From positions 1 through 20,642 of IMG/VR virus record IMGVR_UViG_3300006802_000765: 20,642 nt of DNA; one strand, given 5' to 3'. Each line of letters begins with the position of its first letter. The stretch's first letter is position 1. The notes beneath the pieces are model-generated. The model had not been told where the DNA came from. It was given only the letters and a program-made list of their open reading frames with translations, and made no database searches. This document shows, in pieces, positions 4,009 to 20,642 of this stretch. Source of the DNA: a virus. A program made the position numbers and the translations under genes.

Positions 4009-4754
4009 GGCCTCATGGCCGCGCCAGAGTAAGCTCCAGAAGCCCGCGCGCGTTTGCGATATGCGACAGGTGCGGATTTTTGTATAATCACGTCAATTTG
4101 CAGTGGCAGTATGACTGGGCGGGCGCTTCTTTAATCAACAAGCGCATTCTTGTCTGCGACACATGCAATGACGTTCCGCAGCAGCAGCTTCGAGCCATCG
4201 TGGTCCCAGCCGATCCGGTTCCTATCCAGAACCCGCGCATTCAGGATTATCAGACAGCAGAAACGGATTATCGCATTACGCAAGGCAATACGACGAACGC
4301 GCAGACCGGGATACCCGTTCCCGGTGGTGAAACTCGCATTACGCAGAGCAACGATACGCGCGTCACACAGCAGATTGGCGGCACGAGATCAGATCGCAGC
4401 CAGCAACCGGGTCTTGACCAAAATGCTATCATGCCGTTGCAGGGGGCAACGGCCTATGGTGTCAATATTCCTGTTTTGTCGGCTATATCAAATGGGTCTG
4501 GGTTGGTAACTATTACATGTTCTGCGGCGCATAATCTTTCAACAAATGATCAAATATCCGTTGAGGGGTTTTCTGCGGCTACGGCAAACGGCTTCTACAC
4601 AATTACAGTAACGTCTGGGACGGCGTTTACCTATCAGGTAAATCCTGTCCTTGCCGCAGGATCTTTGCTGACATCGACGACAAAAATGGTTACGGCAAAC
4701 GCCGGATTACCATATAATAATTCTCAGATACCGCAGACAGGACCGCTATCGTGA
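4005..4754 (+). CDS. Neck/tail structural protein with CxxC pair and beta module
   Basis: The 249-residue product has two parts. The N-terminus carries CDRC (residues 20-23) and CDTC (51-54), 27 residues apart, flanking [21 protein letters not shown]; this looks like a zinc ribbon or rubredoxin-like knuckle. Residues about 70-145 are a low-complexity linker rich in T/Q/N/R. Residues about 157-235 form a beta module ([24 protein letters not shown]...[18 protein letters not shown]) like those that databases label ubiquitin-activating E1 FCCH-like. It overlaps the adaptor upstream by four bases and the collagen gene downstream by four, so it likely joins the neck and the fibres. Function is not established. 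Confidence 0.7.
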
Positions 4755-6475
4755 GCAACATCCAAATCCCGAACCTACCTGCTGCTACATCGCTTACAGG
4801 CGGCGAGCAGCTTGAGGCTGTTCAGTCCGGGACATCTGTTCGCGTAACGTCTTCTCAAATTGCGGGGTTAAATCCTGGCCCGACCGGGCCGGCCGGTCCT
4901 GTAGGTCCAACTGGTCCGTCTGGAAATACAGGCCCCACGGGTCCTACGGGTCCCGCAGGCTCCACGGGCGTTGCTGGCCCCACGGGCTCTATCGGTCCGA
5001 CAGGCCCTTCTGTGACAGGGCCTACTGGCGTTGCCGGCCCCACTGGCTCTACCGGCCCGACCGGCCCGTCAGTAACAGGGCCTAACGGGCCAACCGGCCC
5101 GACCGGGCCAAGCGGTCCCACCGGGTCAACCGGAATTTCCGGCCCGACGGGCCCGACAGGCGTAGCAGGGCCGGGCGGTGGGCTTGGTCCCACGGGGCCA
5201 ACGGGGCCTGTCGGAGCGGGCTTCAATTACAAGGGCACCGTAGCCAATGCGGCCGCGCTTCCGGGCTACCCCAGCTCATATACGGGAAGCGTCGGCGACG
5301 CCTATATTACGACGAACGACAGCCATCTTTGGATATGGAGCGGGTCGACATGGGTTGACAACGGTCCCGTTACTACGGGGGTTACAGGTCCAACAGGCCC
5401 AACAGGCCCAACAGGCCCAACTGGACCTACGGGCTCGGCAGGCCCTACCGGTTCTGCTGGTAACGCTGGCCCGACCGGCCCTACTGGCAGCACAGGAAGT
5501 GCTGGGCCGACGGGACCGACCGGAGCTGCCTCCAACGTTGCCGGCCCGACTGGTTCAACTGGCCCGACCGGCCCGACTGGCCCTACAGGCGCGGCGTCCA
5601 ATGTTGCGGGGCCAACTGGCCCTACAGGCGCTACTGGCCCGGCTGGCGGGGGAATTAACTACAAGGGCACTGTTGCAAATTCTGCGGCTCTTCCGGGCTA
5701 CCCAAGCTCCTACACAGGCAACGTTGGCGACGCTTATGTAACCCTTGACAATACACATCTTTGGGTGTGGGACGGGTCGACTTGGGTTGACAATGGCGCA
5801 ATCACGTCAGTTGCTGGCCCGACGGGTCCGACAGGACCGACAGGCTCTACCGGCTCAACAGGACCTACGGGTCCTACAGGCCCGACGGGCTCTACTGGTT
5901 TGACGGGACCTACGGGTCCGACAGGGCCTACAGGGTCTACTGGTTCCACAGGACCTACAGGACCTACAGGACCTACGGGCTCTACTGGTTCCACAGGACC
6001 TACGGGGCCTACAGGACCTACAGGGTCTACTGGTTCCACAGGTCCTACAGGCCCTACAGGGCCGACGGGCTCTACTGGCTCCACAGGACCTACAGGCCCT
6101 ACAGGGCCGACCGGATCGACAGGAGCGGCCGGGTCAACAGGGCCGACAGGGCCGACAGGGCCTACTGGATCAACTGGAGCCTCCGGTTCGACGGGTCCAA
6201 CCGGCCCAACTGGTCCCACAGGATCAACTGGAGCCGCTGGCTCAACAGGGCCGACAGGCCCAACCGGTCCGACAGGCTCAACCGGCGCCGCCGGGTCAAC
6301 GGGACCGACGGGGCCGACTGGTCCAACAGGCTCCACTGGCGCTGCCGGCTCAACCGGCCCAACTGGTCCGACTGGCCCTACTGGCTCTACCGGCACTGGT
6401 GGCCCGACTGGCCCTACAGGGGCAAATTCGCCAGCGAATAAAATCGTCGGACTTATCCTGACGTTTGGAGGTTAA
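4751..6475 (+). CDS. Collagen-like tail fibre protein
   Basis: The 574-residue product starts at GTG (GTGA overlap with the preceding stop). Residues 1-42 form a non-collagen head ([20 protein letters not shown]...SQIAGLNPG), a type that in other phages attaches fibres to the particle. The rest is Gly-X-Y collagen sequence dominated by GPT, broken twice by PSVTG and by two copies of a 48-residue globular module (residues 158-205 and 302-349). The second half (356-550) is nearly pure repeat. The end, [15 protein letters not shown], is a short hydrophobic cap. Such proteins form trimeric stalks. Threonine fills most Y positions where animals have hydroxyproline, so threonine glycosylation could stabilise the helix. 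Role in adsorption is inferred. Confidence 0.85.
5222..5365 (+). repeat. Globular fibre module, copy 1
   Basis: A 48-residue unit ([15 protein letters not shown]... to ...GSTWVDNG) interrupts the collagen repeat. It matches copy 2 at 38 of 48 residues, while many third codon positions differ. The pattern YKGTV...LP...GDAY...LW.W.GSTWV.NG is a small beta module that I recall in many phage fibres and that may bind sugar or set trimer register. Confidence 0.8.
5654..5797 (+). repeat. Globular fibre module, copy 2
   Basis: Second copy of the 48-residue module ([15 protein letters not shown]... to ...GSTWVDNG), 432 bases (144 codons) after the first. Differences cluster at the stretch TTNDSH versus TLDNTH. 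This indicates an old internal duplication followed by drift, with the collagen segment between the copies evolving faster. Confidence 0.8.
5816..6400 (+). repeat. Tandem collagen repeats, 45-bp then 54-bp units
   Basis: Six 45-bp units coding [15 protein letters not shown] (one has GLT) run from 5816 to 6085. Five 54-bp units coding [18 protein letters not shown] (one has GAS) follow from 6086 to 6355, and a degenerate unit ends the array. The longer unit looks like the shorter one with one extra triplet pair. Synonymous differences between units are frequent, so the array is not freshly expanded, but neighbouring units are still close enough for slippage. Confidence 0.9.
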
Positions 6476-8288: not shown

Positions 8289-8310
8289 TTAATGCCTAGG
8301 GGGGCATTAA
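8289..8310 (+). promoter_or_regulatory. Hairpin covering the SD and start of the GT17 gene
   Basis: A perfect 8-bp inverted repeat pairs TTAATGCC (8289-8296) with GGCATTAA (8303-8310) around loop TAGGGG. The Shine-Dalgarno-like AGGGGGG (8298-8304) lies in the loop and 3' arm, and the A of the start ATG (8310) is the last paired base. In RNA this would partly hide the start site, so it is a candidate translational control element. No T-run follows, so it is unlikely to be a terminator. Confidence 0.5.
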
Positions 8311-9140
8311 TGAGCATCGTCGATGCATTTCTTTTTCACAATGAAATCGACGTATTGAAAATGAGGCTTGAGCTTCATTATGATTACGTCGATAGGTTTT
8401 GTATTTGCGAGGCAGACCTTACTTTCAGCGGAAAACCAAAAGAGCGCACTTTCGACGCGAGAAGAAGCGAATTTGGTAGATGGCAGAACAAGATAGAATA
8501 TGTTCGCCATTTTGCAAAAGCAGATGGTTTGGACCTGTATCGCAAAGACACCGAATTTAACTTTTCATCGCCAGCGTGGACGCTGGAAAACAGCCAAAGG
8601 AACAATCTGGCCGCTGCATGTCTGAAAAACGCAAACGACGACGACATTGTAATCATATCTGACGTTGACGAGCTGATTAATCCAGAGGCCTTTGAGCGCA
8701 TCAAAAGCCGGAAAGATTTTGACATTGCGCGATTGCAACTGCTCAATCACTACTACTTCATGAACTGCCGGGCGGTCGGCCTAAACAAGTGGTGGTGCGC
8801 CCCGATAGCGGTCAGGGCGTCGAGGCTGAAGACTATAAACGACATATCTTCAATGCGGCCATACGGGGAAATTGACGACGTCATATTGCAGGCGGGGTGG
8901 CATTTTTCGTATCTGGGCGGCGTTGAAAGAATTATGGACAAGATTTCATCTTTCTCCCATACCGAGCTGGACAATCCGGACATAAACAACGCCGAAAACA
9001 TATCAAAAAGCATTGAGAAGGCGACGGATTACATAGGCAGGGAGGGGCATGAATATGCCTTTTACCCGACAGGAAGTTACCCGGACTGCATACAAAAACT
9101 GATGACGAAGAACAGACATCTGGTGAAATGGTATCTTTAG
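8310..9140 (+). CDS. GT17-type glycosyltransferase
   Basis: The 276-residue product matches glycosyltransferase family 17 (the family of animal beta-1,4-mannosyl-glycoprotein GlcNAc-transferase, with many bacterial and phage members). It has the opening IVDAFLFHNEIDVLKMRLE, then FSGKPK (residues 39-44), ENSQRNNL (93-100), the metal-binding motif DVDE (118-121) in IISDVDELINPEAF, and GWHFSYLGG (196-204). The ATG at 8310 puts the family N-terminus at residue 2; the upstream ATG at 8292 would add MPRGAL through the hairpin. Sugar and acceptor cannot be read from sequence. Candidates are a virion protein such as the nearby collagen-like fibre, or host surface polysaccharide. It is followed after nine bases by a second glycosyltransferase gene. 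Confidence 0.85.
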   Translation: MSIVDAFLFHNEIDVLKMRLELHYDYVDRFCICEADLTFSGKPKERTFDARRSEFGRWQNKIEYVRHFAKADGLDLYRKDTEFNFSSPAWTLENSQRNNLAAACLKNANDDDIVIISDVDELINPEAFERIKSRKDFDIARLQLLNHYYFMNCRAVGLNKWWCAPIAVRASRLKTINDISSMRPYGEIDDVILQAGWHFSYLGGVERIMDKISSFSHTELDNPDINNAENISKSIEKATDYIGREGHEYAFYPTGSYPDCIQKLMTKNRHLVKWYL

Positions 9141-9149
9141 AGAGGGGCT

Positions 9150-10883
9150 ATGCCGAAAATTATCACCTGCACCGTGAACAGCAGATGCACGAGTGTCCTC
9201 GCGGCGAGTGTTGACAGCTACTGCCCCGAGGCGGGGCTCGTTATTCACAAGGTTCAGCAAACGACCTTTGGTGAAAGCTTCAATGCCGCAATGACAGAGG
9301 CTTTTGAGGCGGACGACGAGATCATCATCGCCAATGACGACGTCGTTCTGACGCCGTCTTCCTATCGACTGCTGATGGAGGATGTCGAAATCCTGAAGGC
9401 GCAATATGGCGACAGGATTGGATTTGTCGCTGCGCATACTGACTCGGCTTTCCCGGCGCAAAATATTCGCTTCCAGCACGGCTCTAATATGGACAGATAC
9501 AGATGCCAGTGGGAGTGGGAGAAGGCGGCCAGGGCTGCGGAAGTCGTCGCGCCGATATTCGCGTGGATATCAAAGAAGGCCTTCGAGGCAGCGCAATTTC
9601 CGCCGCTGAACTGGTATTCTGACGACGTGATCTGCCGAGATCTTGGCAAGCAGGGCTTTGTGCACTTTATCTCGCGCGCATACGTCCACCATGTCGGCTC
9701 GCAAACGGTGGGCCACGACGACGGTAACAATTCCGCACTTTCGTTACCTTGGCTGCGCGCGAACAGGCCAGACTACGCAGATATGTGGTTTGGGCCTGAG
9801 CGAGCAGAAGACCCGCCGAAGAAGCCCAAAATATGTGTTTACGCTATCTCAAAGAATGAGGAGCAATTTGTTGAACGATTTGTTCGGTCAGCGCGGGATG
9901 CTGACCTCATTCTTGTGGCGGACACCGGGAGCGAAGACGGGACGGTTGAGGCATGCGAGCGTTTGGGCGTGCATGTCGTTCGCATTCACATATCCCCTTG
10001 GCGCTTTGATAGCGCCAGAAATGCTGCTCTCGCGCTGATCCCGGCGGATTTTGATATTTGCGTCAGCCTTGATCTTGACGAGGTTCTGGAGCCGGGATGG
10101 CGGGAGGAGATTGAACGCGTCTGGACGCCTTCAACAACTCGGCTGATATATTTTTATGACTGGGGCAACGGCCTTCGGTTTAAATACGAAAAAATCCACG
10201 CCCGCAAGGGGTATCATTGGCATCACCCATGCCATGAATATCCGCGCCCTGATCTTCGCGTTTCAGAGGTTTGGGCAGAAACAGACATGCTGCTTGTGCG
10301 CCACCTGCCCGATCCGACGAAAAGCCGGGGGCAGTATCTCGACCTTCTTGAGCTATCGGTGAAGGAAGACCCGCACTGCCCACGAAACGCTTTCTACTAT
10401 GCTCGCGAGATGTCATTTTACGGCAAATGGAACGAGGCGATTGACGCCTGCCAGAAGTATCTCGCCATGCCGGAGGCAATATGGGCTGATGAGCGCGCCT
10501 ACGCGCACCGGGTGATTGGCCTGTGCCGGGAAAACTTGCGCGACGTTGCTGGCGCCGAAGCCGCTTACTGGGCGGCGGTTGCTGAAGCTCCATGGGCGCG
10601 AGAGCCGCACGTGGCATTGGCGCAGCTTTATCACAATCAAGGCAACTGGGCGGCGTGCTATGCATCGGCGCATAGGGCACTCGTTTTCAAAGAGCCGAAA
10701 AAAGTATATACTACCGACCCAAAGGCATGGGGCTCCTGGCCGCATGACCTTTTGGCGATTGCGGCGTGGAAAATGGGGTTTCGCGAAGAGGCATTGGCCA
10801 ACGGAGAAATTGCCGCGTCGCTTGAGCCGGGCAATAAACGTTTACAAGAGAACCTTTTGTGGTTCCGAGGCGAAAAGGAATAG
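9150..10883 (+). CDS. Two-domain glycosyltransferase with C-terminal TPR-like repeats
   Basis: The 577-residue product carries two GT-A-like domains. The first (about 1-215) has IIIANDDVVLTPSSYRLL (NDD at 62-64) and NWYSDDVICRDL, resembling GT2-like enzymes. The second (about 226-390) begins PKICVYAISKNEEQFVERF and has VADTGSEDGTVE (257-266) and the DxD motif DLDE (308-311), as in SunS-type and related GT2 proteins. After it, helical pairs at about 410-565 (NAFYYAREMSFYGKWNEAIDACQKYL, RAYAHRVIGLCRENLRDVAGAEAAYWAAVA, PHVALAQLYHNQGNWAACYASAHRAL, DLLAIAAWKMGFREEALANGEIA) look like TPRs that may present the acceptor. SD GAGGGG precedes the ATG. It likely works with the GT17 protein on one glycan. 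Donor and acceptor are unknown. Confidence 0.8.
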   Translation: MPKIITCTVNSRCTSVLAASVDSYCPEAGLVIHKVQQTTFGESFNAAMTEAFEADDEIIIANDDVVLTPSSYRLLMEDVEILKAQYGDRIGFVAAHTDSAFPAQNIRFQHGSNMDRYRCQWEWEKAARAAEVVAPIFAWISKKAFEAAQFPPLNWYSDDVICRDLGKQGFVHFISRAYVHHVGSQTVGHDDGNNSALSLPWLRANRPDYADMWFGPERAEDPPKKPKICVYAISKNEEQFVERFVRSARDADLILVADTGSEDGTVEACERLGVHVVRIHISPWRFDSARNAALALIPADFDICVSLDLDEVLEPGWREEIERVWTPSTTRLIYFYDWGNGLRFKYEKIHARKGYHWHHPCHEYPRPDLRVSEVWAETDMLLVRHLPDPTKSRGQYLDLLELSVKEDPHCPRNAFYYAREMSFYGKWNEAIDACQKYLAMPEAIWADERAYAHRVIGLCRENLRDVAGAEAAYWAAVAEAPWAREPHVALAQLYHNQGNWAACYASAHRALVFKEPKKVYTTDPKAWGSWPHDLLAIAAWKMGFREEALANGEIAASLEPGNKRLQENLLWFRGEKE

Positions 10884-10887
10884 GCCA

Positions 10888-11145
10888 GTGCCAGACTACC
10901 AGGTTCTCTTCAACATCGTCATCGGCATCCTCGGAGCCATGGGCGGGTGGATGCTGAACACGATGTGGGTTTCGCTCAAAGACCTTCAGGCGGCGGATAC
11001 GAAATTAGCCGAAAAGGTCAGCGCAATCGAGGTTCTGGTAGCTGGGCAATATGTGACGCGTGACGAATTCACGGTGACGATGCAAGCGGTATTTGCGAAG
11101 CTGGACAAGATACAGGACACGCTGAACAACAAGGTTGACCGCTGA
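10888..11145 (+). CDS. Small membrane protein with coiled coil
   Basis: The 85-residue product starts at GTG, with AAGGAA seven bases upstream; the same frame is open far upstream, but only as an out-of-frame shadow of the glycosyltransferase. Residues 5-25 (QVLFNIVIGILGAMGGWMLN) form a single hydrophobic, Gly-containing membrane segment. The rest (SLKDLQAADTKLAEKVSAIEVLV...KLDKIQDTLNNKVDR) is amphipathic and likely coiled coil. I recall relatives in many environmental phages near tailspike and lysis genes. TM-plus-coiled-coil architecture recalls holin-associated XhlA or spanin proteins, but no function is shown. It ends one base into the tailspike ATG (TGATG). Confidence 0.65.
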   Translation: MPDYQVLFNIVIGILGAMGGWMLNTMWVSLKDLQAADTKLAEKVSAIEVLVAGQYVTRDEFTVTMQAVFAKLDKIQDTLNNKVDR

Positions 11146-12878
11146 TGGTTGATGACATTGCCACAGTTTGGGGAGGGCAGGTGCGGCTCGGCCGCAACCC
11201 GGCTAACGACGAAGTTCTACTTGGTAATTCAGGCGGTAATTTTACGCTTACCAATATTTCAGCTATCATACCCATTTCTGAAGAAGTAGTTTATGCGACT
11301 GTCGCTGCTGCAACAGCCGCAACAATTAATGCCGGCGTTGATGCGGTAAAAACGCTTGGTTATTCCACGGTTGGCGATCCCGGGGCAGCTACATATAAAA
11401 GATCTGCTTCTGAGCCAACACACGCCGGCAAGTTCCAAAGCGCAGATGGAGCGTGGTGGGAACTGACAACGCTTCAGCCTAATCCGTATATGTTTGGTGC
11501 TGCGGGTAATGGCTCAACAAATGACACTACTGCACTTCAAAATCTCTTTGATTATGCTGACGCTAAAAACACAATAGCATATCTTGCCTCTGGCAACTAT
11601 GCCGTTCCATCAACAAGTCTTACCGTAAATACCAATGTTCAGGTTGTTGGTTGCGGACGCGACGCGCAGATTTGGCGCACTAATGATGTGGCTTTGCCGG
11701 TTTTTAACTTAACATCTAAAACTGCGGTAGTTTTGCGAAATTTTGCTATTATTAAAACTGTTCAATTAACTTCTACAACATCTCAAGCAATAGCAACATC
11801 AGGTTCAAAAACATTCACCGTTTCTGCTAATGCTTCTACAGGGCTATTCCCTTATACGGCTGGCCAATTTATTACAATTAAAGCCGCCGCTTCTGCTGCA
11901 AATTATATGGTTGGAACAGTTACAAGTTACACCGGAACAAGTTTGGTTCTTTCAATCGTCGGTGGATCTGGAAGCGGGACTTTTACATCATGGTATTTTA
12001 CGTGCTATGACAATAGTAATGCCGCAGTTATTATGTCTTCATGCACGCAGTGTGTTTGTGACGCATTATATGTTTCAGGCACATCTTTTTATGTTGGGTT
12101 GGAGACCCTGAATGGTACTAATGACACATTAATAAATAACGTCGTAAACTCTGTTTGGAACAGAGGACTTTATATTTATGCAACATCAGGAACGTCGCGT
12201 GCCTGCAAGCTTTTGGGGAACTCAATTCTTGGAGGAAGCTTGACTGACTATGCGATTAATTGCAACGGTTCTACTGCTGGGTACATATACAACGCCATTA
12301 TCGATGGCAACTCTACCTATGCGTCGGTATTTGACGGTATAGTTGTTGGCGGCAGAATGGAACAGTCAGTCGTAAGTAACAATCAAATTGACAATGTAGT
12401 GGGCGTTCAGGGAGGAGTGTATGTTGGTATTGGCATCTTGATTGAAGAAGCAAATACATATCAAGCTAGCTACAACACCATAGTTGGCAACAATATATAT
12501 TCTGCATATAGTGCGGGAATTATTACCTTAAACTCATATGCAAACAATGTTAGCGCAAATTCTATAAAGTTCTGCGGAACAGGCATTTATTGTCTTCAAT
12601 CCGGCTCAACATATACGAATTCTTATCACACATTTACGGGAAATAACATAAATGGGTGCACTGCGGCTGGAATTAGTGTTGCTACAGGAACTGCTGGGTA
12701 TAGCTACGGTAATGTTTTTACTGGAAATACGTCTACAGCAAACTCAACATATGGGTTCATAGCCGATGCGAACAGCGACAGGCTTTCAGTTACGGGCAAC
12801 GTGTTTTATTCGAACACGACCTCTAATTACAGCAACTCCGCCACCAATTCACAGGCGGCGGGCAATGTTACGGCTTAA
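11145..12878 (+). CDS. Beta-helix tailspike / pectate-lyase-like fibre
   Basis: The 577-residue product begins with an attachment-type head: MVDDIATVWGGQVRLGRNPANDEVLLGNSGGNFTLTN (residues 1-37), a motif I know from phage tailspikes. A linker domain follows (VKTLGYSTVGDPGAATYKR, KFQSADGAWWEL). The catalytic-fold domain opens with MFGAAGNGSTNDTTALQNLFDYA (about 117-138), the classic start of the Pectate_lyase_3 right-handed beta-helix, and continues as Asn/Ser/Gly-rich rungs with GNN/GNS turns to the C-terminus. It should bind and possibly cleave host surface polysaccharide. No C-terminal trimerising or chaperone domain is obvious. The gene is visibly more AT-rich than the endolysin gene after it, consistent with separate acquisition. 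Confidence 0.85.
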   Translation: MVDDIATVWGGQVRLGRNPANDEVLLGNSGGNFTLTNISAIIPISEEVVYATVAAATAATINAGVDAVKTLGYSTVGDPGAATYKRSASEPTHAGKFQSADGAWWELTTLQPNPYMFGAAGNGSTNDTTALQNLFDYADAKNTIAYLASGNYAVPSTSLTVNTNVQVVGCGRDAQIWRTNDVALPVFNLTSKTAVVLRNFAIIKTVQLTSTTSQAIATSGSKTFTVSANASTGLFPYTAGQFITIKAAASAANYMVGTVTSYTGTSLVLSIVGGSGSGTFTSWYFTCYDNSNAAVIMSSCTQCVCDALYVSGTSFYVGLETLNGTNDTLINNVVNSVWNRGLYIYATSGTSRACKLLGNSILGGSLTDYAINCNGSTAGYIYNAIIDGNSTYASVFDGIVVGGRMEQSVVSNNQIDNVVGVQGGVYVGIGILIEEANTYQASYNTIVGNNIYSAYSAGIITLNSYANNVSANSIKFCGTGIYCLQSGSTYTNSYHTFTGNNINGCTAAGISVATGTAGYSYGNVFTGNTSTANSTYGFIADANSDRLSVTGNVFYSNTTSNYSNSATNSQAAGNVTA

Positions 12879-18624: not shown

Positions 18625-19125
18625 ATGACGGACGACATACACGTACGAATTGGGACACCGGAAGATCTACCTGGATGCATGGAGATGTTCCTCCAAGCTA
18701 ACCTAGAGAACGGCATCGACAAGTTATCGCAGGAGAAGCTCCTGAGCATCGTCTGGCCGTCGCTGCACCAGGATGCTGGCGTCGTTGGAATTGTGGGACC
18801 AGTCGGAGAGAAACCAGAGGGGGTGGTGTTACTCCGAATTGAGTCTCTGTGGTATAGTGATGCTCCAGTGATCGCTGAGAAACTTGTGTTTGTTCATCCC
18901 GATTACCGGAGTGCTCGTGGGGGACGAGCTCGGAAGTTGTGTGAGTTCAGCAAGAAGGTGTCAGACGAGCTCGGCATGCCGCTGATCATAGGCATCGTGT
19001 CTAATGATCGGACCAAGGGTAAGGTCAGGATGTACGAGCGACTGCTCGGTCCTGCTGCTGGGGCTTACTTCTTGTACAACGGGAAAACTGGACTAGTCCA
19101 GGAAGCCCACACGAAGGACAGTTAA
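18625..19125 (+). CDS. GNAT family N-acetyltransferase
   Basis: The 166-residue product has the GNAT layout: RIGTPEDLPGCMEMFLQANLENG (8-30) as the first strand and helices, EGVVLLRIESLWYSDAPVIAEKLVFVHPDYRSARGGRARKLCEFSKKVSDELG (65-117) as the central strands with the acetyl-CoA loop (VHPDYRSARGGRARKL, motif A), and NDRTKGKVRMYERLLGPAAGAYFLYN (127-152) as motif B. The acceptor is unknown. GNAT genes of this type recur among structural genes of podovirus-like phages, where acetylation of virion or host proteins has been suggested. SD AAGGGGA lies six bases before the ATG. Confidence 0.8.
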   Translation: MTDDIHVRIGTPEDLPGCMEMFLQANLENGIDKLSQEKLLSIVWPSLHQDAGVVGIVGPVGEKPEGVVLLRIESLWYSDAPVIAEKLVFVHPDYRSARGGRARKLCEFSKKVSDELGMPLIIGIVSNDRTKGKVRMYERLLGPAAGAYFLYNGKTGLVQEAHTKDS

Positions 19126-19127
19126 GC

Positions 19128-20642
19128 ATGTGCTCCTTTGGCTCTGGAAGCTCCGGTCCCTCTGCGCCAACTACGCAGTTTACTACACAGACCACGACAG
19201 CTGATCCTCGCGCTCAGGCGATGTACAGCCAAGCGTGGCAGCAAGCGCAGAAGGTGGCAAACAGGCCATTCCAGCCGTACAGCTACGATCCAAGCGCCTT
19301 TGTTGCTCCGCTCAATCCCGTCCAGCTCCAGGCGGTCGGGAACATTGCGGGATACCAAGGAACAGCAGATCCGTACTACCAGGCAGCTGGCGGAATGGCT
19401 GGCGCCGCTGGCATGACGACCACACCGGAAGTCGTCGGCCAGTACATGTCCCCGTACATGAGCCAGGTCGTTGATCCGATCAAAGCGGCGATGCAGCAGC
19501 AGTTCGGCCAGCAGCTCTCCCAGCAGCAGGCGCAGGCGATCAAGGCTGGCGCCTTCGGCGGAGAGCGCGCTGGCCTTCAGCGTGCCCAGCTCATGGGACA
19601 GCAGGCGCTGGGCCTCGGTCAGGCGCTGAGCCCACTGTACCAGACGGGATACGGACAAGCACTCCAGGGCGCTCAGACAGACCTCGCTCGCCAGTTGCAG
19701 GCATCCCAGGTCCTTGGCGGACTTGGAACTGGCGCGCAGACGGCAGGCCTTCAAGGCGCGCAGGCGCTGCTGGGTGCAGGCACGCTCGGCCAGCAGACAC
19801 AGCAGGCAGGCCTCCAGGCCCTCTATAACCAGTACATGCTCCAGCAGCAGTATCCGTTCATGGCGGCTCAGTACCTGTCTCAGACAGCTGGAGCCCTTGG
19901 TCCCGGATACGGCGGAACGACCACTGGCACGCAGCAGTCGATGCAGCCTCTATCCTACTGGGGCAATCCTCTGTCGGACCCGGACCTCAAGACTGGCCCC
20001 CGAGGAGACGACAAGCCGGAGGTCATCGGCGAGACCAATGACGGCCAGAAGATCTACCGCTACCGCCTCATTGATCCCGACACTGGAGAGCTTGGACCTC
20101 CGCAGATTGGCCTCATGGCTGACGAGGTCGAGGAGCGAACGCCGGAGGCGGTTGGCGACTACAAGGGCTACCGCACCGTCGACTATGCGAAGGCGACCGA
20201 CGACGCAGCCCGCATGGGAGGCGGCGTAAGGTCCTCAGGGGACTACGCCGACGGCGGAAGCGTCCTCGACGACATCCTAGAGTCACAGGGGAAGATGTAT
20301 GAGCCCCTCTCGAAGTCGACAGAGAAGGGCATCGTCCCCTCTGCGACGATCACTCCCGCACGCCTTGAGTCTCCGTCGCTGTCTTATTCGAAGCCTCAGC
20401 AACAGCAGCAGTCCAGCCTCGCTGACAGCCTTGGCAGCGCGTTGAACCTATACAAGGGCGGCAAAGAAGCTCTGAGCCTCGGAAAAGAAGCGGCTGGCGG
20501 ACTTGGCCTCAGCGGCCTCTTGTCTGGCCTTGGCTCTGCAGCCGGAACAGTCGGAGCTACGGGCGGCGTTCCTGTTGGAGTCTTAGGAGCTCTTGGATCA
20601 ACGGCCGTCCCGACCTTCGGTGCGGCTGCTGCTCCTGCAGCA
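19128..20642 (+). CDS. Gln/Gly/Ala-rich virion protein with internal S74-like chaperone domain (partial)
   Basis: A frame open from ATG 19128 to the window end gives at least 505 residues. Residues 1-280 are Gln/Ala/Gly-rich and helical (MSQVVDPIKAAMQQQFGQQLSQQQAQAIKAGAFGGERAGLQRAQLM...), like internal virion or ejection proteins. Residues about 283-365 (SDPDLK, GETNDGQKIYRYRLI, QIGLMADEVEERTPEAVG, YRTVDYAKAT) match the intramolecular chaperone of endosialidase fold (peptidase S74 type), with S283, D284 and K288 in the expected spacing. After it come a Gln-rich linker and an Ala/Gly-rich tail with GLGLSGLLSGLGSAAG repeats. The S74-like domain is normally C-terminal on fibres; here it lies inside. 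The 3' end is missing. Confidence 0.75.
   Translation, partial: MCSFGSGSSGPSAPTTQFTTQTTTADPRAQAMYSQAWQQAQKVANRPFQPYSYDPSAFVAPLNPVQLQAVGNIAGYQGTADPYYQAAGGMAGAAGMTTTPEVVGQYMSPYMSQVVDPIKAAMQQQFGQQLSQQQAQAIKAGAFGGERAGLQRAQLMGQQALGLGQALSPLYQTGYGQALQGAQTDLARQLQASQVLGGLGTGAQTAGLQGAQALLGAGTLGQQTQQAGLQALYNQYMLQQQYPFMAAQYLSQTAGALGPGYGGTTTGTQQSMQPLSYWGNPLSDPDLKTGPRGDDKPEVIGETNDGQKIYRYRLIDPDTGELGPPQIGLMADEVEERTPEAVGDYKGYRTVDYAKATDDAARMGGGVRSSGDYADGGSVLDDILESQGKMYEPLSKSTEKGIVPSATITPARLESPSLSYSKPQQQQQSSLADSLGSALNLYKGGKEALSLGKEAAGGLGLSGLLSGLGSAAGTVGATGGVPVGVLGALGSTAVPTFGAAAAPAA

Follow-up and report, generated by a model that had tools for sequence, protein, structure and literature searches.

Our best reading of the gene that closes the 20,642-base virus record analyzed here (the whole stretch, called the window) is that it encodes a fused ejection (internal virion) protein in which an S74/ICA-type module, shortened and lacking the coil, sits where the helical N-domain gives way to the C-part, and that the Ser–Lys pair of this module still cuts. 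For that statement as a whole we see even chances. S74/ICA domains have been studied, according to the parts of the cited sources available to us, as C-terminal fibre chaperones and in MYRF, whose coil builds the cutting-competent trimer. A widespread subfamily with the cutting pair and without the coil, located at the joints of injection proteins, raises the question of whether the pair works coil-free. The coil-less module also lends itself to simple test constructs and may point to a way in which ejection proteins mature.

The Window Gene and Its Neighborhood

The ORF runs on the plus strand from 19128 to 20642, codes for 505 residues without a stop up to the window end, and is open at its 3′ side. 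The features considered were as follows:

18625..19125, + strand: GNAT-type acetyltransferase gene, the constant upstream neighbor of the ejection-type family (phrog_1249 'acetyltransferase', E 3e-4; neighbor counts)
19128..20642, + strand: ejection-type protein gene with its 3′ end beyond the window (ORF of at least 505 residues; phrog_4287 match; homologues of 987–1,976 aa)
19206..19898, + strand: helical N-domain core, residues 27–257 (AlphaFold2 helices 27–44 to 187–257; conserved in 84 sequences)
19968..20216, + strand: S74/ICA-type module without C-terminal coil, residues 281–363 (partial PF13884 match; model; VIA match to MYRF ICA)
19974..19991, + strand: SDPDLK hexapeptide with the putative Ser–Lys dyad S283/K288 (translation)
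20217..20642, + strand: low-confidence Gly-/Gln-rich start of the C-part, residues 364–505 (translation; model confidence falls after about residue 360, modeled to 401)

The translation of the ORF contains SDPDLK, GLMADEVEERTPEAVG and VDYAKAT as quoted in the sequence-only reading that preceded this work. S283 is encoded by 19974–19976 and K288 by 19989–19991, and the putative cut, if there is any, would fall between L282 and S283. That reading had also placed the module inside a long ejection-type protein, which was borne out by the layout of the relatives and by a match to phrog_4287 'DNA ejection protein' across most of the profile (window-protein residues 13–356, profile positions 5–386 of 392, E 9.9e-21). 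Elsewhere in the window, in a single row, stand a collagen-repeat fibre-like protein (4751–6475), a GT17-type glycosyltransferase (8292–9140), a GT2-type glycosyltransferase (9150–10883), and a weakly matching beta-helix protein (11145–12878).

A GNAT-like gene was present directly upstream of all 119 fused proteins with the first module and of all 18 N-domain proteins without a module, as well as of 9 of the 10 standalone forms with the N-domain and 19 of the 35 other standalone forms. The idea that the GNAT acts on the dyad Lys was unsupported, since the module-less N-domain proteins have the same neighbor. In the available part of PMC10783043, a 'chaperone of endosialidase' and an acetyltransferase are among the genes common to some alphaproteobacterial phage clusters, and for Sulfitobacter phage PhiGT1 the available text states that most internal virion proteins are omitted from the main map (PMC10386132). 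Searches of the open-licence PubMed Central literature turned up no paper describing S74 modules in ejection proteins; the available portions of PMC7139368, PMC13299392, and PMC6851490 held nothing on the module.

Identity and Predicted Fold of the Module

Judged from sequence profiles, the segment is almost certainly an S74/ICA relative. The window copy matched Pfam PF13884 with 17.4 bits (E 1.2e-4 in a one-genome search; 13.7 and 17.1 bits in further runs), which is below the curated cut-off of 22 bits, and it covered only profile positions 24–57 of 58, so taken alone it would point to S74 weakly, at a level above chance. The homologous proteins exceeded the cut-off (P0003 with 37.1, P0005 with 43.8, and P0006 with 35.3 bits), and PF13884 was matched by 95 of the 97 aligned family modules, the window included (E 0.01 or better). 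The S74/ICA identity is thus secured by the relatives although the window copy is sub-threshold; the S74-like module claimed earlier is real, and a resemblance by chance or composition was rejected on the same figures. A sequence profile of the modules matched 6f45 (E 0.0013), 7dc3 MYRF (0.0038), and 3gud GA-1 neck appendage (0.024), all of them ranking beneath a repeat hit on ThreeFoil, a designed protein. The ThreeFoil match (3pg0), like the SUMO and procarboxypeptidase matches of a five-sequence profile, was set aside as short, repeat, or chance.

In the AlphaFold2 model of residues 1–401 (84 sequences, mean pLDDT 71.3, pTM 0.35), the N-domain was predicted to be helical, with helices between residues 27 and 257. 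Residues 281–360 were confident (strands 298–302, 308–315, and 322–328, helix 331–337, strands 342–345 and 348–351), and a short helix (353–363) closed the module, after which confidence fell. The module modeled alone reached a mean pLDDT of 84.3 and a pTM of 0.71. Foldseek found no match for it in the PDB at E 0.001 and likewise nothing usable for the 401-residue model. The best row of VIA-align 2 was the MYRF ICA domain (7dc3_B; Z 4.2, rmsd 6.1, 76 residues; next row Z 2.5), which gives modest backing to an ICA fold of the predicted structure. The closest BFVD models were uncultured phage proteins of 850–1,487 residues; since three of the top five are named 'Intramolecular chaperone auto-processing domain containing protein', the domain has already been recognized by automatic annotation.

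Layout of the Fused Relatives

The relatives, collected by scans of viral contigs and genome contigs, follow the plan of the phrog_4287 family: a helical N-domain is succeeded by the module and, as a rule, by over 600 further residues, in which a peptidoglycan-degrading domain is often present. A first census gave 110 distinct ejection-type proteins with the module, 72 of them complete; of these, 71 are 987–1,976 aa long and extend more than 600 residues past the module, and one is standalone. On the N-domain tree, the window groups most closely with L010 (1,369 aa) and L002 (1,322 aa), both with complete ORFs; the L002 protein has Hydrolase_2 at 730–838. MW202675.1, annotated as 'internal virion protein D', carries the module at 277–327, with the dyad at S277/K282, and an SLT domain at 601–694. 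Lytic domains commonly follow the module, though, of six two-module proteins searched with Pfam, three had none and a fourth had only one below threshold. The earlier remark that the module lies in the middle of the protein holds as a description of the whole family and is not particular to the window.

Conservation of the Ser–Lys Pair

The module starts with the SDxxxK motif, and the S, D, and K positions (283, 284, and 288) are kept as the sequence-only reading had stated. In the first census, all three residues were found in 110 of 110 distinct module-bearing ejection-type proteins. A whole-module profile recovered them in 167 of 168 distinct segments of N-domain proteins and in 52 of 54 others, the three exceptions (L020, L062, and L202) being unaligned on the dyad side. 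The L062 segment is truncated by the contig end. L202 (ORF from 5752) is a fibre-type S74 protein of 141 aa from a bacterial MAG, with Cys replacing Ser in CDPLFK.

A body-only profile (residues 298–360), blind to the dyad, was used to escape circularity. The sequence-only reading had named loss of S or K in relatives as the finding that would speak against it; with the body-only profile, SD...K was found upstream of 194 of the 195 module bodies in N-domain proteins, which does not refute the reading. The only body without it belongs to L020 (protein from 4672, residues about 430–505), which has an SD..MKTG stump further along and adjoins lineages having no module at all, as if, in this one case, the dyad had been lost before the module. 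Among the aligned segments of N-domain proteins, none had A, T, or N in place of S. PMC10769870 (available part) names SDxxxK as the catalytic motif of S74 and shows that processing of Bd3182 is blocked by S782A; S-to-A exchange blocks processing also according to PMC8326128 and PMC3742443, as far as those texts were available.

The SDPDLK dyad was invariant in two alignments (one of 84 sequences). In the 84-sequence alignment the invariant columns were seven only, i.e., S283, D284, K288, G301, G306, G328, and A331, and in the set of N-domain proteins G301 was as invariant as the dyad. Because some glycines are equally fixed, the invariance of the dyad is strong evidence but does not by itself prove catalysis.

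The retention of the dyad in these alignments favors a working Ser–Lys site. The main rival to this reading proposes an S74 fold that does not cleave and acts as a structural joint or a local oligomerization piece, with S, D, and K kept for a structural network; we consider it a real possibility, somewhat short of even chances. The fold glycines, as constant as the dyad, suit such a joint, but a Ser with a Lys five positions on, kept at all but one of the bodies in a known catalytic motif and with none of the exchanges of S mentioned above, exceed what a joint would need.

Absence of the Coil and the Beta-Helix

Trimerization of MYRF depends mainly on its C-terminal triple coiled coil, and only trimers are cleaved (PMC8326128); processing also requires the leucine-zipper residues (PMC3742443), as described in the available portions of these papers. 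T5 pb1 is described in the same partial way as having a C-terminal triple coil, long hairpins, and Ser1264, Lys1269, and Arg1250 from the neighboring chain (PMC4690869). In the window protein, the C-terminal helix (353–363) gives way to low confidence and forms no predicted trimeric coiled coil. No trimeric coil was found beside the module in 154 fused-type tails, 50 residues being examined in each; these tails are Gly/Pro-rich, with 17 residues as the longest Gly/Pro-free run within the stretch examined. The AlphaFold2 model showed neither an upstream trimeric beta-helix or stalk (no strand of at least three residues before 298) nor a long hairpin in the module. Since the coil and the upstream beta-helix are both missing, the module is a coil-less variant and not a full ICA member.

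Autocleavage in the form first put forward is left unsupported by these results: the coil that drives trimerization of the MYRF ICA domain is absent, the N-side is helical, and there is no triple beta-helix. The non-cleaving joint gains here, because a protein without the coil lacks the known means of building the cutting trimer. Arg at position −14 was tried as a mark of cleaving copies, an upstream Arg having been named for K1F and T5 (PMC8326128 and PMC4690869, available parts). It occurred in none of 201 mini modules and none of 12 local fibre-type modules, and it does not discriminate, since the local fibre-type modules also lack it.

Coil-bearing fibre-type S74 proteins are encoded separately in the same genomes as the coil-less module in L009 (10989), L019 (11124), and L008 (3469), and also in ppBeUSDA76-2.

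The motifs of the module are common to fibre S74 domains, and the protein could on that ground be taken for a fibre with an ordinary S74 chaperone whose coil lies further along the chain. We find this scarcely credible, the least probable of the readings considered. The separate coil-bearing proteins of L009, L019, and ppBeUSDA76-2 differ from it in the flanks on both sides; the N-domain is helical and the residues that follow the module are Gly-rich; the relatives carry lytic domains; and the 154 tails hold no coil beside the module.

Presence, Loss, and Duplication of the Module

Searching with the N-domain by itself yielded 71 distinct proteins, in which the module was present in 51 and absent in 16, four being cut too early. 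The complete module-less proteins are 1,050–1,524 aa long and, being still long, remain fused; the other module-less ones run off their contigs. Because 16 of 67 relatives do without the module, cleavage is not essential to the fused proteins in general, and the notion of cleavage as their general need falls. Persistence of the fused layout in the absence of the module is also what a non-cleaving joint would allow. A tree of 135 N-domains, of which 120 have the first module and 15 lack it, required at least nine changes of this label, seven of them forced by well-supported branches; the second module needed 15 changes.

Two modules were found in 34 of 162 distinct module-bearing N-domain proteins, e.g., L063 (2425), L219 (5932), and L105 (4739). 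All of these proteins have SD...K in both modules, and for 26 of them the ORF is complete. At the second site, the window's clade and L020 have a stump, SD..xKTG after a hydrophobic stretch and without the body (residue 536 in L002, 527 in L010, 552 in L013, 562 in L019, and 799 in L020); the window breaks off at residue 505 of its protein, ahead of the stump site. A downstream SD..[LAMTVI]K occurred in 14 of the 82 one-module fused proteins, while 50 shuffles (79 distinct tails) averaged 4.2 and never exceeded 10; the KTG context was found in only 6 of the 14 cases, two of which are near copies.

Two facts tell against our best reading: the window's own copy stays short of the Pfam threshold, and bodiless stumps persist in its clade. 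The same two facts, together with at least nine losses or gains of the module on the tree, could be accommodated by a degenerate, functionless remnant of a fibre-type S74 domain acquired by recombination. This explanation is already disfavored and seems to us very improbable, as 194 of 195 bodies with SD...K and a high-confidence predicted fold give no signs of decay, and presence or absence of the whole module is the rule, half-decayed copies being rare.

Split Relatives and the Fusion Joint

In Bradyrhizobium phage ppBeUSDA76-2, the N-part and the module form a 367-aa gene, which has its dyad at S297/K302, ends two residues past the module profile, and is followed by a 496-aa gene. Module-ending genes closely followed by the next gene were found also in Rhizobium phage RHph_N2, EBPR podovirus 2, Sulfitobacter pCB2047-C, Ochrobactrum vB_OspP_OH, Sinorhizobium phiM5, and Pseudomonas PAE2; the gene with which the pCB2047-A record opens likewise terminates with the module. 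According to the GenBank notes for phiM5, the module protein and the three proteins following it were detected in the phage particle proteome.

Among 52 complete ORFs with a near-terminal module, 39 stop 0–13 residues past it, too few for a coil; the remaining 13, with 19–52 residues past the module, are read from their sequences as mostly fibre-type proteins with helical tails. Following ORFs were available for 24 of 30 standalone ORFs, and 5 of the 24 matched a fused C-part, always beyond the module. P0003 and P0007 also match by BLASTP (E 7e-7), although P0007 did not appear with phmmer at E 1e-3. Since the N-part and module make up a gene of their own in these podovirus relatives and some of the next genes match C-parts, the fusion joint lies after the module and not at S283. 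The position of the module at the end of the N-protein gene in the split relatives fits a non-cleaving joint as well. The view of the module as a stray fibre end does not stand: it belongs to a separate coil-less subfamily that recurs in the ejection-type family and ends the N-protein in split relatives.

Possible Processing of the Fused Proteins

Self-cleavage by the module, which we infer, hangs roughly in the balance. The missing coil and the dispensability of the module argue against essential classical cleavage. Oligomerization via another part of the protein, for example, the N-domain, may bring on the Ser–Lys cut just before S283. In the fused proteins such a cut would yield a free helical N-part and a C-part beginning with the module, products much like the two separate proteins found in the split relatives. 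If the fused proteins are cut, the two-part split proposed in the sequence-only reading would be right, but as a family-wide trait.

More tentatively, and at a level that we would call doubtful, the protein could be a self-cleaving ejection polyprotein, in which two ejection proteins were fused and one or two coil-less Ser–Lys ICA modules were kept as cut sites. Folding or assembly would then release the helical, middle, and lytic parts. If true, an ICA domain would cut without its coil and outside any fibre.

Comparison with Known Systems

The T7 gp14–gp15–gp16 and P22 ejection proteins resemble the family in their proposed internal virion role and in that one member of each set brings a peptidoglycan-degrading domain (PMC8954989). 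Unlike here, neither an S74 module nor a fusion is mentioned for those proteins in the available portions of that paper on ejection proteins, in which cleavage by a host enzyme is described as perhaps needed for P22 gp20.

With the Peptidase_S74/ICA domains of phage fibres and tailspikes (K1F endosialidase, T5 pb1, and GA-1 neck appendage), the module shares the SDxxxK start, the G-x-A-Q/D-E-V motif, and the profile and Pfam matches. It differs from them in lacking the C-terminal triple coil and the long hairpins (known for T5 from the available part of PMC4690869) as well as the preceding beta-helix, and it often lies away from the protein end. As in MYRF, a eukaryotic transcription factor, the ICA module stands within a longer chain and has Ser and Lys five residues apart, whereas MYRF has the coil, with the zipper residues required (PMC8326128 and PMC3742443, in part), and its sequence neighborhood is unrelated. 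Further counterparts are phrog_4287 'DNA ejection protein' and phrog_6121 'virion structural protein', 392-position profiles ending in an S74-like part; in contrast to them, the window protein, which matches phrog_4287, and most of the viral relatives found extend hundreds of residues past the profile.
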